36,097 nt of DNA from assembly GCA_007695245.1 (NCBI GenBank), contig REEE01000328.1, positions 1-36,097 of the forward strand, given 5' to 3'. Of the stretch, positions 9,309-20,305 are shown piece by piece (within the stretch, counting starts at the first letter, position 1; every line of letters starts with the position of its first letter). Under the pieces are notes generated by a model. The model did not search any database and was not told where the DNA came from. It saw only the letters and a program-made list of their open reading frames with translations. The stretch is from Candidatus Competibacteraceae bacterium (GTDB lineage Bacteria; Pseudomonadota; Gammaproteobacteria; Competibacterales; Competibacteraceae). A program made the translations under genes and the position numbers.

Positions 9309-12656
<3,348 letters not shown>

Positions 12657-14288: not shown

Positions 14289-14759
14289 GTGAAGGTTAAA
14301 CTGACGCTGGGAAATGTTTGGACAATAACCATGCGTCATTTTTGTTGCTTTCTAGGCATGCTGATTATTTGCATCATGAGTGGAATATCTTCCGCAGATA
14401 ATTTGCCCGTTGTGGTTGTCAATCCCACGGTTGATCCTAAATCTTTTCTTTCGCGAAGCGCTTTCAGCGCGATATTTGGAATGCGCCTCAGGAAATGGGA
14501 GGATGGTTCGCAGATCAAAGTCTTTGTACTAGCTGATGACAGTCCTTTACACGTTAACTTCAGCAAAAATATTCTTCGGGTTTTTCCCTATCAATTGCGT
14601 TTAGCTTGGGATCGATTAGTTTTTTCCGGTACGGGAGAGGAACCTACCAAGCTAAAATCAGAGCAACAAATGCGAGAAATGGTTGGTTCCACACCTGGCG
14701 CTATTGGTTATTTGAGTAGGTCCATGATCGATGAAACGGTTAAAGCGATTAATTTTTAA
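14289..14759 (+). CDS. PstS-like periplasmic substrate-binding domain protein
   Basis: This small exported protein (156 residues from GTG 14289) belongs to the phosphate-binding-protein-like (PBP) superfamily. Features are VVVVNPTVDPKSFLSRSAFS followed by AIFGMRLRKWEDGSQIKVFV, and the C-terminal REMVGSTPGAIGYLSRSMID, where STPGAIGY matches the PstS-type ligand loop. The protein is about half the size of full PstS, as in other single-lobe members. A signal peptide is present (CCFLGMLIICIMSGISSA, cleavage before DN). GTG 14289 has AGAGG 8 nt upstream. ATG 14331 would put the signal sequence right at the N-terminus but has no Shine-Dalgarno. No Pst permease or ATPase is nearby, so it is unlikely to work in classical phosphate import. 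It overlaps the start of the porin gene, suggesting joint expression. Confidence 0.7.
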   Translation: MKVKLTLGNVWTITMRHFCCFLGMLIICIMSGISSADNLPVVVVNPTVDPKSFLSRSAFSAIFGMRLRKWEDGSQIKVFVLADDSPLHVNFSKNILRVFPYQLRLAWDRLVFSGTGEEPTKLKSEQQMREMVGSTPGAIGYLSRSMIDETVKAINF

Positions 14760-16110
14760 TAATCGAAAATTGAATATATTTTTTCCACTACACTTTGGGA
14801 AAAAGCTATATTTTATGGACATTTTTGGAAAAAGATTATTCGGTAACAAAATGCTTTTACAGTTCATTCATAGTCAGCATCGCCTAGCGAATTTTTTTAA
14901 AGCTTTAATCATACCCCATTGGATGATTGTTGGATTTCTATATATCATCCTGGGTTGGTATGTTACTGAACGCGCACAGGCTTTCGATCTTACTGAAGAT
15001 ATTCAATTGCATGGATTTATAACTCAAGGCTACTTCCTGACGTCGGACAATAGAATTTTTGGAAAAAGCGATGAAGGCGGCAGTTTTGATTACACTGAAG
15101 CTGGCATCACTGGCTCATGGACTCCTCATTCTGATTTCCGTTTTGCGGCTCAAGTATTATTTCGACGGGCCGGAATAGGGAACAACAATGATTTTGAACT
15201 CGATTTCGGCTTACTCGACTACACCATCCTCTCAACGGTTGATTACCGCCTTGGCGTACGCCTTGGGCGCGTAAAAACACCTTTTGGTTTTTATAATGAA
15301 ACTCGTGATGTATTATTCACCAGGCCAACCATTTTGTTGCCCCAATCCATTTACGCCGATGCCCAACGTGACTTGGCTATGTCTTCAGACAGTGGTTTCA
15401 TCTATGGTGAATATCGAAATGACTGGGGAAATCTGTCTCTTGAACTTGGCGCAGGGATACCAAGAGGGGACAGTGTGGATGTTGAACTCGGAATATTGGG
15501 AGATGATTTTCCGGGGGAAACGTATTCCGAACTCTCTTATGTCGGGAGGTTAGGCTATGAGACCCAAGGCGGAAAATTTCGTATGGCTATTACTTCGGCA
15601 CGGGTAGATACTCGTTATGATCCGAAGCTTCTTCCCCCTGATGACTTGCTGGGTGGCAAGGATATATTTATCCCAGTAATTTTTTCGGGGCAGTATAATC
15701 GGGAAAAACTAAGCCTTACTGCTGAATATGCCTTTCGTTCGGTTGAAGCTACCGGGTTCGGAAGTGGATTTGATAGAAAAATGATTGGAGAGAGTTATTA
15801 TCTACAAGCGGAGTATCGATTTAGACAGAATTGGCAGTTTGTTTTACGTTACGATGTAATGTATAATGATCGTAACGATAAAAATGGTAGAAAAAATGAG
15901 GCAAAATACGGATCCCCTGCTCATACTTGGTTCGCCAAGGATTGGACTATCGGACTTCGCCATTATATTAACCCTTCTTTTTTGATTGCCGCTGAATATC
16001 ATTCGATCAATGGCACAGCTTGGATAGTGCCAATTCAGGATAATCCTGACCCTTTCGATTTGAAGAGAAGATGGAATTTATTCGCTCTTGCAGTGAGCTA
16101 TCGCTTTTAG
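14731..16110 (+). CDS. Outer-membrane porin-like beta-barrel protein
   Basis: This is a 459-residue protein if started at ATG 14731, which overlaps the previous gene by 29 bp. In-frame ATGs at 14815 and 14851 are also possible, and no start has a convincing Shine-Dalgarno. A hydrophobic export segment (MIVGFLYIILGWYVTERAQA) is followed by FDLTEDIQLHGFITQGYF. The rest consists of alternating beta strands with many aromatic ends, and the protein finishes in AVSYRF, the terminal Phe expected for BAM-assembled barrels. RLGRVKTPFGFYNETRDVLF resembles OprO/OprP-type porins and other porins of the superfamily. Substrate is unknown. Coupling to a PstS-like protein may point to an anion or a signalling role, but that is inference. 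Codon use is AT-rich like its neighbours. Confidence 0.75.
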   Translation: MKRLKRLIFNNRKLNIFFPLHFGKKLYFMDIFGKRLFGNKMLLQFIHSQHRLANFFKALIIPHWMIVGFLYIILGWYVTERAQAFDLTEDIQLHGFITQGYFLTSDNRIFGKSDEGGSFDYTEAGITGSWTPHSDFRFAAQVLFRRAGIGNNNDFELDFGLLDYTILSTVDYRLGVRLGRVKTPFGFYNETRDVLFTRPTILLPQSIYADAQRDLAMSSDSGFIYGEYRNDWGNLSLELGAGIPRGDSVDVELGILGDDFPGETYSELSYVGRLGYETQGGKFRMAITSARVDTRYDPKLLPPDDLLGGKDIFIPVIFSGQYNREKLSLTAEYAFRSVEATGFGSGFDRKMIGESYYLQAEYRFRQNWQFVLRYDVMYNDRNDKNGRKNEAKYGSPAHTWFAKDWTIGLRHYINPSFLIAAEYHSINGTAWIVPIQDNPDPFDLKRRWNLFALAVSYRF

Positions 16111-16173: not shown

Positions 16174-16962
16174 CTACCCGAGAGGCTTACGTCCTACGAC
16201 AATCATTTGTAATATTGCGGAAAAAAATTTACCTTCCGCATTAGAGCGTTCAAGTTCCGCATGCATTTTTTCCAACTCAATTGGTGAGACAATACCAGCT
16301 TCCAAAGCGAATTTCTCAGTCTCATCAAACCAGGTAATTTGCCGACTAATCTGGTAGTCCAATATGAAGCTTGGGGCCAATTCAACATATATATCCTCCA
16401 GCATGGACTGCTGAAAGATACCATAAAGTTGTCTTCCTATATAACCATTCTTGGTCGCTTTTTCAACATGAAATTTTTTTAATTTTTGCTCTATATCAAT
16501 CAAGCTTGTATCGAATGACATTGTACTCCAGTCCGTATCGAATACCAGAGCCCAGCCACCGGGTTTAGTCACTCTTATCATTTCCTGAAGAAGTTGGTGT
16601 GGGTTGGTGCTATGCTGAAAAACTCGCTCGCTACGAACAGAATCGAAATGGTCTGAGCTCAATGAAAGACAGTGACCATCACCCAGATAATGGGAAACCC
16701 ATTTATTTACTCCAGCGTCGAGGGTTTTTTGGTTCGCATGCATGATTTGCTCTTTATCAATATCCACCCCAACGACCTGTCCGGTTTCACCAACAATTGA
16801 AGCTAGGGAAATTGTATCTGTTGCTGGACCACAACCTACATCGAGCACTTTATTGCCAGGTTGTATCCGCATCAGCTCATAAGTGCGTTTTTTGTACTTC
16901 GAAACGATGTTGGCGATTGATAAAAGATAGTCAGATGGTGAGTAATTGTTTGCAGACGCCAT
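16174..16962 (-). CDS. Class I SAM-dependent methyltransferase, substrate unknown
   Basis: The 262-residue product has the Rossmann-type methyltransferase core: motif I VLDVGCGPATDTISLA (near residues 40-55), acidic motif II VVGVDIDKEQI, DHFDSVRSERVFQH and a motif IV/V region with VTKPGGWALVFDTDW. This is the methyltransferase domain 11/25 pattern seen in many small-molecule and quinone methyltransferases. ATG 16962 (MASANNY) is preferred over ATG 16977 because GAGGAGA sits 7 nt before it. The gene faces the porin gene across 63 bp and lies in the AT-rich island. It could act on the product of the nearby acyltransferase, but nothing in the sequence shows that. Confidence 0.8.
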   Translation of the reverse strand: MASANNYSPSDYLLSIANIVSKYKKRTYELMRIQPGNKVLDVGCGPATDTISLASIVGETGQVVGVDIDKEQIMHANQKTLDAGVNKWVSHYLGDGHCLSLSSDHFDSVRSERVFQHSTNPHQLLQEMIRVTKPGGWALVFDTDWSTMSFDTSLIDIEQKLKKFHVEKATKNGYIGRQLYGIFQQSMLEDIYVELAPSFILDYQISRQITWFDETEKFALEAGIVSPIELEKMHAELERSNAEGKFFSAILQMIVVGRKPLG

Positions 16963-17021
16963 GTCGAGTCTCCTCATGTATTAAATAATGATGCAAGTTG
17001 ACCAGTCTTAAAAAGGGTGGG

Positions 17022-17223
17022 TTAGGATGAATAAAGTCGATAAAGCCTTGCTTTCACGAGAATCTTCTCAATTAATCGCTTTTTGTCTTGATGATAGTAT
17101 TTCGGTAAGCTGCTCCACAACCTAAGCCTCTTAATTCTAAGTCCATCTACCGCATTGAATTTTGACAAAAAGCTAGCAACATTGCCGATGGACTCAGTGG
17201 AACGAATCTCTCCATAAATTATG
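17022..17223 (-). pseudogene. 3' part of an ORF split by a MITE-like insertion
   Basis: The minus strand is open from the left target repeat at 17223 to TAA at 17022-17024 and reads as protein-like sequence (RSTESIGNVASFLSKFNAVD, then LRIKRLRLWSSLPKYYHQDK). Removing the 119-bp element plus one 8-bp target repeat joins this frame exactly to MMFQLSHII upstream (ATG at 17370), giving a 73-codon ORF. With the element in place the frame shifts and stops early. I do not recognise the family. The C-terminus is rich in Lys/Arg and Tyr. The ORF could itself be the tail of a longer gene whose 5' part was lost where the next gene begins. Confidence 0.45.
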
Positions 17224-17350
17224 CCTCCTGTAAATTTTCCAGTGACCTTCGTCCGGCAACCTCAACTTGTAGTGTTGGCCCTGTCTGAGCCTATCACAGG
17301 AAGCGACCACCCCACATTTATCACTGGAAAATTTACAGGAAGAAATTATG
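17216..17350. mobile_element. MITE-like element with terminal inverted repeats and 8-bp target duplication
   Basis: A 119-bp element occupies 17224-17342. Its ends form 22-bp inverted repeats with one mismatch. The perfect 20-bp core is 17226-17245 (TCCTGTAAATTTTCCAGTGA) and its reverse complement is 17321-17340. Identical 8-bp direct repeats AAATTATG flank it directly at 17216-17223 and 17343-17350, as expected of a target-site duplication. The interior (about 75 bp) is too short for a transposase. The element must be non-autonomous or a deletion derivative of an IS that makes 8-bp duplications. I cannot assign the family from the repeat alone. Confidence 0.8.
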
Positions 17351-17386
17351 TGTGATAATTGAAACATCATGAAGGTATTGTAGCAA

Positions 17387-20305
17387 ATGATTTCCCCATC
17401 GCCACCAGCACCGCGTCCGGGTTTTTTCCTGAGTCTCAAGTGGAAGGCCCTACTGCTAAGCAGCATCGCCCTGATCTTGATGACCGGCGCTCTAGTAACC
17501 ATCAATCACATCGAACTGCACAATCAGTTCGAGCAGCGCCGATTGGAACTACAAAACCAATATGCCCGGCAGGCCCAAGGGTTGCTGGATCAGTCAGATC
17601 AGCGGCTGCGGCAATGGAGTACGATTATCGCCTCCATGCTCGATATCCGAGTGGCTTTCGAGCAGAGTCGAGAAGTACGGATGATCGCCGAAATCGAGCG
17701 GCTGGCGCCGATTCTGGGATTGGATATGGGCTTACAAAGCATTCTGCTGGTCTCCGCGACCGGTCAGCATCTGACCGTGCATGGCCTGGATGAGAACTCC
17801 GAAGGAGGGGTCGCGCTGCGGGAAGCAACCCGGCGGGTTATGACCACCGAGACGCCGACCAGTCTGATCGACTGCGTCGATACCTGTCTCCAGTACTCCA
17901 TCGTTCCCATCCTCGGCACTGGCGGAGTGCTAGTCGTCGGGGTATCCCTGGCGGATGTCGTTCTTGACTTTCAGCGAGTTGCCGGAATCGATCTCGGCTT
18001 GATCGTCGAACAACCCCAACCCAGGTCTCATGACGATGGTAAGCGCTGGCTCCCGCAATGGGGCGCTCAGGTCGTCGCACTGGGCAACCCACAGGTTAAT
18101 ATGGAAATCTTGCGTATGGCTGCGGTGAACACGCTAACCGACACGGTCCGCGAACCGATTTATGTCGACGCCAACCGGCGTGAGTACGAGGTTCGGCTGT
18201 TTCCGCTGACCGGTTTCGGCGAAGGGGAAGGGGCTTACCTAGCGATCATCGCGGACATCAGCGACGCGATAGCCAGGATTCGAGTCGCGTTCCAGCGCAA
18301 CATTACCCTGGGAGTCTTCGGCTTGGCATTATCGGAACTCATGCTCCTGGGGATACTGTGGGCACCCATGTCCCGACTGCGGCACGCGGCGGACAAGTTG
18401 CCCTGGCTGGCCACCGGCGCGTTTGCCAAAGTGCGCGAGGCGATCTCGGACATGCGCCTGACGCATTTTATTCGGGACGAAGTGGATGTATTGAATGATA
18501 TAGCGATCGCTGTATCCTTTCAATTGGAAGCGCTGAATGTCGAAGTAGCAAATCGGACCCGGGATCTCTCGGAACGGATGAAAGAAATCACCCAACAGCG
18601 CAATTTCGTCACCCATATTCTGGAAACAGCCCAAGCGATCATTTTGACTCAGGATCGGAATAATGCAATCCTGACGATCAATCCTTATGGCCAAACGATC
18701 AGCGGTTATTCTCTCCAGGAATTGCAAGGGCGACCCTTTGTCACTCTGCTCGCTGAAGAAGGTATCGACTCGATTTGCGAGCAACTGGCGGAGCTGGTGG
18801 TTGGGACCCGGGAACACATTGAGGAAGAGCGCGATCTTTTCTGTAAGGATCACAGTTTATCCAACATTGTTTGGCAGCATTCCCGTCTCCGAGGCCATGC
18901 CGAGGGGACGCCGGTGATTTTATCGGTCGGAATGGATATCACCGCCAGGAAGAAAGCCGAACTGCAACTGGCCTGGTTGGCGGACCACGACCCACTCACC
19001 GGACTCTACAATCGGCGTCGCTTTACCCAAGAGTTGAACGATGCGGTCGCGGCAGCCAGGCGGTATCGCTATTCCAGCGCGTTGTTGTTTGTCGATTTGG
19101 ATCAATTCAAGTACATCAACGACACCAGCGGCCATCACGCGGGAGATCGGCTGTTGCAGCGACTCGGCGCGCTGCTGCCGGCCATCCTGCGCGAAGTCGA
19201 TGTGATCGGTCGTTTGGGCGGCGATGAATTTGCGGTGATCCTCAATCGAACCACGGCTGACGAGGCCGTGCAAGTGACCCGTAAGATTCTCGCGCACATT
19301 TGCGAAATCGAATTCCAAGTCGATGAGCGAGTCCACAAACTATCGGCCAGCATCGGTATCGCTTTGTTTCCGGAACACAGCGCCAATATCGAGGATCTCT
19401 TGGCCCGTGCCGATCTCGCCATGTATCAGGTCAAAGAAAGCGGACGAGGTGGATGGCATCTTTTGTCGATTGAAGACCAGAGTCAGCGCCGTATGAGCGA
19501 GCGCGTATTTTGGAAACAACGGGTGGAACACGCTCTAAAAGAGGATCGGTTTTTGTTGTATGCCCAGCCGATCCTCAGAATTCGAGACCATGTGATCTCG
19601 CATTACGAAGTTCTACTTAGGATGCGGGGCGACGATGGAGAAATTTCTGGACCCGCGCAGTTCATTGAAGTTGCGGAACGCTCGGGACTCATTCATTCCA
19701 TCGACCGGATGGTCGTCTCCGAAGCCATTCGCCATCAAGTGGTTGCCAAGGAACAAGGCTGGCGGCTCTTTCTGACCGTCAACTTGTCCGCTCACGCGTT
19801 TAACAACCCCGATTTGTTGGGTTATCTCAAACAGCTTTTGCAGGACACCCAGATTGATCCCCAACAACTTGTTTTCGAGATCACTGAAACGGCTGCGCTT
19901 GCCGACCTGACGGCCGCTCACCGCCTGATGAAAGCCATCAACGACCTCGGCTGCCATTTCGCGCTCGATGATTTCGGAACCGGATTTTCGTCTTTCTACT
20001 ACTTGAAGACACTACCGTTTAAGTTTATCAAGATTGACGGATCGTTTATCAATAAACTGGGAGAGCGCAGGGACGATCAAATTTTGGTCAAGGGGATCGG
20101 AGAAATCGCGAGAGGGTTTGGCAAGAAGACGATCGCCGAACAAGTTGAAGATGAGGAATCTTTTTCCCGACTCGCTGAATACAATATCGACTACGCGCAA
20201 GGTTATTATATAGGGCGACCCGTTCCGATCACCCGTATTTTGGAAGAAAATCAACGGGCGGTCTCTCATGGTTTGCAGTTATCCATCAATGAAAAATCAG
20301 TATAA
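17387..20305 (+). CDS. Membrane-bound PAS-GGDEF-EAL c-di-GMP protein (allele B gene)
   Basis: This 972-residue sensor protein is predicted to make and/or degrade c-di-GMP. An N-terminal membrane segment (about 14-40) leads into a roughly 260-residue periplasmic part of CACHE-like character, starting with a long helix (HNQFEQRRLELQNQYARQAQ). A second membrane segment (about 303-325) is followed by a HAMP-like helix. A PAS domain (about 400-520) comes next. The GGDEF domain has intact LGGDEF near residue 608. The EAL domain has EVL for EAL near 738, with EITETA, DDFGTG and KIDGSF kept. EVL occurs in active and in binding-only EAL domains. The ATG at 17387 lies 37 bp after the right target repeat of the MITE-like element, so its promoter may lie in or behind that element. 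GC content is higher than in the preceding island. Confidence 0.85.
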   Translation: MISPSPPAPRPGFFLSLKWKALLLSSIALILMTGALVTINHIELHNQFEQRRLELQNQYARQAQGLLDQSDQRLRQWSTIIASMLDIRVAFEQSREVRMIAEIERLAPILGLDMGLQSILLVSATGQHLTVHGLDENSEGGVALREATRRVMTTETPTSLIDCVDTCLQYSIVPILGTGGVLVVGVSLADVVLDFQRVAGIDLGLIVEQPQPRSHDDGKRWLPQWGAQVVALGNPQVNMEILRMAAVNTLTDTVREPIYVDANRREYEVRLFPLTGFGEGEGAYLAIIADISDAIARIRVAFQRNITLGVFGLALSELMLLGILWAPMSRLRHAADKLPWLATGAFAKVREAISDMRLTHFIRDEVDVLNDIAIAVSFQLEALNVEVANRTRDLSERMKEITQQRNFVTHILETAQAIILTQDRNNAILTINPYGQTISGYSLQELQGRPFVTLLAEEGIDSICEQLAELVVGTREHIEEERDLFCKDHSLSNIVWQHSRLRGHAEGTPVILSVGMDITARKKAELQLAWLADHDPLTGLYNRRRFTQELNDAVAAARRYRYSSALLFVDLDQFKYINDTSGHHAGDRLLQRLGALLPAILREVDVIGRLGGDEFAVILNRTTADEAVQVTRKILAHICEIEFQVDERVHKLSASIGIALFPEHSANIEDLLARADLAMYQVKESGRGGWHLLSIEDQSQRRMSERVFWKQRVEHALKEDRFLLYAQPILRIRDHVISHYEVLLRMRGDDGEISGPAQFIEVAERSGLIHSIDRMVVSEAIRHQVVAKEQGWRLFLTVNLSAHAFNNPDLLGYLKQLLQDTQIDPQQLVFEITETAALADLTAAHRLMKAINDLGCHFALDDFGTGFSSFYYLKTLPFKFIKIDGSFINKLGERRDDQILVKGIGEIARGFGKKTIAEQVEDEESFSRLAEYNIDYAQGYYIGRPVPITRILEENQRAVSHGLQLSINEKSV

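Follow-up and report, generated by a model that had tools for sequence, protein, structure and literature searches.

Structure and boundaries of the repeat

In a 36,097-nt contig of a Candidatus Competibacteraceae bacterium (contig 13 of a 4.08 Mb draft assembly in 389 contigs; "the window" below means this whole stretch of DNA), a methyltransferase gene (16174-16977, minus strand) is separated from a dCache-PAS-GGDEF-EAL gene (ATG at 17387) by a short repeat without coding capacity. The locus raises the question of whether this repeat is a mobile element and, if so, which transposase could have moved it. We are highly confident that it is a MITE, a 119-bp non-autonomous transposon presumably mobilised by the ISKra4-family, ISMich2-type transposase of an insertion sequence (IS) that shares its ends.

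The element spans 17224-17342, with no strand assigned, and ends 44 bp before the start of the dCache-PAS-GGDEF-EAL gene; the methyltransferase gene flanks it on the other side. Its left terminal inverted repeat, CCTCCTGTAAATTTTCCAGTGA (17224-17245, plus strand), and its right one, CTTCCTGTAAATTTTCCAGTGA (17321-17342, minus strand), are reverse complements over 22 bases with a mismatch at position 2 alone (21/22). Directly outside lie two exact copies of the 8-mer AAATTATG, at 17216-17223 and 17343-17350, which are its only plus-strand occurrences in the window. A direct check of the sequence thus found the preliminary description, of a 119-bp element with 22-bp ends (21 matching) and perfect 8-bp repeats, to be correct to the base. 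The window contains no other inverted pair of 21/22 or better spaced within 300 bp, and none arose in 20 shuffled versions of it. As RNA, the element folds better than all 200 shuffled versions on both strands (z -5.2 and -6.4).

Copies in the genome and in relatives

Matches to the 20-bp end numbered 44 in the window's own genome at up to three mismatches, compared with none for the reversed control pattern. BLAST resolved about 20 two-ended elements, typically 118-121 bp long, three of them 99% identical to the window copy; by their cores they form a few subgroups, with 73-99% identity to that copy. Among 190 related genomes, matches were confined to the Competibacteraceae, where the end pattern was present in all 13 genomes examined (the window's own and 12 others); one of them holds as many as 113 matches. 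Pattern scans found no two-ended copies of this type in a set of genome contigs, which may leave out the window's genome, and none in viral contigs. The search for paired ends in the genome and its relatives that had been proposed at the outset therefore returned copies in both. Together with the absence of coding capacity and an 8-bp duplication that recurs, these copies bear out the earlier view that the repeat has the structural marks of a non-autonomous MITE.

Several other arrangements were noted during these searches. One end is solitary, with neither a second end nor a transposase alongside (L090, G000:C127, 2087-2105); it follows a 72-aa ORF, itself located after a gene that, by eye, is a candidate for an NqrF-type flavin/ferredoxin subunit. 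In a relative (L079, G007:C36, around 9413-9569), an extra partial end, CCTGTAAATTTTCCGGT, directly precedes CCTGTAAATTTTCC at a MITE copy, as if one copy had inserted into the end of another; the AAATTTTCC of that end resembles the target described below. The window's assembly also holds a second MITE family of 134 bp, seen at C194:62831-62964 (about 2332-2465 of L085, G000:C194:60500-63110), where it is nested within a copy of the first family. Its ends are CTCACCACC/GGTGGTGAG and its duplications 10 bp, for example GTCCGGCAAC; nine copies, near-full or partial, occur in the genome, and the 9-10 bp duplications of most of them are intact.

Target-site duplications are intact or absent

To score the flanking repeats we compared the two flanks of each copy with one another and with those of other copies. 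Duplications matching at 7-8 of 8 positions were found at 9/26 copies in the relative G007, versus 20/650 cross pairs of flanks from different copies, and at 4/13 copies in G005, versus 6/156 cross pairs. Perfect matches between flanks of different copies were rarer still (1/650 in G007 and 0/156 in G005). On the basis of these cross pairs in two relatives, the 8-bp direct repeat in the window is not a chance match. Copies that lack a matching partner still carry half-sites of about 80% A+T with an AAAWWTTT pattern, compared with 50% just outside. The MITE target is AT-rich, about AAAWWTTT, and is duplicated over 8 bp.

Over three genomes, the duplication was intact (7-8/8) at 14 of 55 copies, 13 of these 55 being exact, and stood at about chance level in 41; two copies scored 6/8. 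Within the window's own genome, the window copy is alone among 17 scorable copies in having an intact duplication, the other 16 showing no match. Gradual mutational decay was rejected as the cause, since it would give intermediate values and erode the ends too, whereas the observed pattern is all-or-none. Recombination between copies, or deletion adjacent to them, would instead account for the lost duplications. Partner half-sites gave no proof of simple flank exchange, which predicts them in excess: in the window's genome, eight matches at 7-8/8 stood against five for the control, not a real surplus. Where two direct copies recombine, the half-sites between them are lost, which would account for the missing partners.

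One copy lies at a visibly altered gene. At contig C381 of the same genome (L027, element near 1499-1617) a gene for a HelD-type RNA polymerase recycling factor is truncated: it stops at the MITE, whereas the G017 relative runs on, and a search of the window's own assembly did not turn up the remaining portion. This truncation supports exchange or deletion of flanks at MITE copies. It is a real possibility, if somewhat short of probable, that the ISMich2-type MITEs here are frequent substrates for deletions and rearrangements, with most copies marking the point where two once separate insertion sites were joined.

For the missing duplications, and for these only, the alternative is an artefact in which draft contigs were wrongly joined through the repeat. 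The assembly is indeed a draft of 389 contigs, and many copies are no more than 250 bp from the end of a contig. Against this, the second MITE family of the same assembly has intact 9-10 bp duplications at all readable sites except one, copies in mid-contig (including two identical ones, in C174 and C325) are likewise without the duplication, and two further assemblies show the pattern as well. We therefore regard misassembly as unlikely, while still giving it some weight, and proceed with loss of the duplications by recombination or deletion.

The same data bear on the age of the window copy. The perfect duplication had been taken to suggest a fairly recent insertion, which is plausible, but the duplication alone is no proof: three other copies are 99% identical to that in the window, and the two of these that can be scored have no matching duplication. 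Given such near-identical copies, an intact duplication is better read as the sign of an unrearranged site than of youth.

A probable ISKra4-family partner in related genomes

The preliminary description named no IS family and proposed a search for a full IS with these ends. Such elements were found in relatives. In G005, one contig carries both MITE-type ends 1.5 kb apart with a transposase in between; a second 1.5-kb element with these ends and a transposase is present in Candidatus Contendobacter sp. SB13 (G015), and a third IS with shared ends in HKST-UBA202, another Competibacteraceae genome. The left end of the window element agrees with the G005 IS end, CTTGCTGTAAATTTTCCAGTGA, at 20/22 positions and with the G015 IS end, CCTCCTGTAAATTTTCCTGTGA, at 21/22. 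Cyanobacterial and Crocinitomicaceae relatives of the IS have related ends (CCTGTAAATT..).

The IS transposase matched the NCBIfam ISKra4 model NF033572 with E 4e-32 and 112 bits, which is below the curated cut-off of 205 bits, and matched Pfam UPF0236 above the cut-off. Its closest named plasmid-borne relatives are cyanobacterial and 47-53% identical. In both G005 and G015 an A8 run marks the overlap of a short upstream ORF A with the main ORF B, which lies in the -1 frame; as read from the sequence, the transposase is split into two ORFs that would be joined by a -1 frameshift at this run. This organisation is known from the ISMich2 group, and the group and its relatives within the superfamily make 8-9 bp duplications and have a terminal C (Guerillot et al. 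2014, PMC3942029).

Contigs of G005 break inside the IS, and we paired the outer flanks instead: five of eight right-end contigs share an exact 8-mer with a left-end contig, in a register identical to that of the MITE. The G005 IS ends begin with CTT and the 8-bp duplication lies directly outside, which fixes the true boundary of the element at the position drawn previously. The related IS supports the boundaries of the MITE: its ends likewise start with C and its 8-bp duplications stand at an equal offset, a register that AAATTATG shares with other MITE copies too. The core of the MITE has no significant similarity to any of four IS copies, so it is the ends, the duplication and the target that link MITE and IS. 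By these features the MITE is assigned to the ISKra4-family, ISMich2-type elements of its relatives as their probable derivative.

No ISMich2-type transposase was found in the window's own assembly. The only transposase homologue there is 31% identical over 161 residues and has no MITE-like ends; this distant ISKra4-type gene, with a 346-aa frame, lies at L114 (G000:C35:5000-7755). The MITE family therefore looks orphaned in its own genome, although repeated IS are often missing from draft assemblies. IS256 (PF00872) was also considered as a parent, without a match in the genome, and viral contigs contained no relatives of the transposase.

Many copies persisting in a genome without a detectable transposase, with ends better conserved than the cores and than most duplications, might also be expected of a REP/BIME-like or domesticated repeat kept for a host function, such as an RNA hairpin or a protein-binding site, with an IS origin being secondary. 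Perfect duplications recur in several species and the ends agree precisely with those of the IS, down to the insertion register, which makes this reading quite improbable. A simple hairpin (terminator or structured RNA) beside a chance 8-bp repeat, a reading suggested by the strong fold on either strand and the intergenic position upstream of a gene, is scarcely credible, the copies and the IS having already refuted it: there are about 20 dispersed copies, no T tract or terminator-like site at the MITE, no match to the element in an Rfam search, and identical-type ends with an equal duplication on elements that bear a transposase.

These data allow us to propose a model for the MITE family. 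The element has a non-coding core between ends of 22 bp each. A DDE (Mutator-type) transposase from an ISKra4-family, ISMich2-type IS would act on these ends in trans, and the MITE would insert into AT-rich targets (about AAAWWTTT), duplicating 8 bp. The autonomous partner may since have been lost from the window's genome, or was never assembled, and most copies would later have lost their duplication via recombination between copies or adjacent deletion.

The insertion site and the neighbouring gene

At the window locus, the right end of the MITE contributes a TTTACA hexamer that, 16 nt away from GATAAT in the flank (17332-17359, plus strand), could form a hybrid outward promoter 27 bp before the ATG at 17387. 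This assignment is tentative and at chance level, with one such promoter found versus 1.1 expected. Taken over all MITE ends, -10-like hexamers were no more than slightly in excess at this one spacing, and an outward promoter was rejected as a general property of the ends. A promoter made in part by the right end is possible, and a regulatory effect of the MITE on the dCache-PAS-GGDEF-EAL gene is unproven.

A base-exact empty site for the window MITE was not found in the homologous junctions of G016 and G024. In both, the sensor gene follows the homologue of the gene at 14731-16110 and no element is seen; the intergenic sequence there could not be aligned, and no methyltransferase gene was recovered.

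Relation to known elements

The window element shares with prokaryotic MITEs in general (PMC10969869) its short length, inverted ends, target duplication, multiple copies, hairpin potential, lack of coding capacity and presumed dependence on a transposase in trans. With the ISMich2 group of the ISKra4 family (p-MULT 4, Mutator-like DDE transposases; PMC3942029) it has in common a terminal C, long inverted repeats and an 8-bp duplication, and the matching IS of its relatives likewise combines a two-ORF transposase, apparently with a -1 frameshift, with an ISKra4 profile match. It differs in being 119 bp long, in having no transposase and in a core unrelated to the IS; the partner transposase also falls below the NCBIfam ISKra4 cut-off. 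A close parallel in method is the 187-bp Microcystis MITE linked to ISL3 (PMC11448079), which was likewise assigned by common ends and an equal 8-bp duplication. That element has other ends (GGCTCTTCG) and another IS family, and direct repeats were confirmed around its homologues.

An ISKra4- or Mutator-derived MITE in bacteria is not mentioned in the review PMC10969869 or in the other literature searched, which is weak evidence of absence. The window MITE family and its partner IS have no earlier description in that literature, although the MITE as a kind of element is well known.

A small repeat with no previous assignment is now tied to a named transposase group, and ISKra4/ISMich2-type elements, on this assignment, can give rise to MITEs that become widespread in the Competibacteraceae, which are wastewater bacteria. 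The all-or-none state of the duplication would offer a simple readout of MITE-linked rearrangement and, if most copies do sit at rearranged junctions, the MITE pattern records past reshuffling of the genome in these bacteria.
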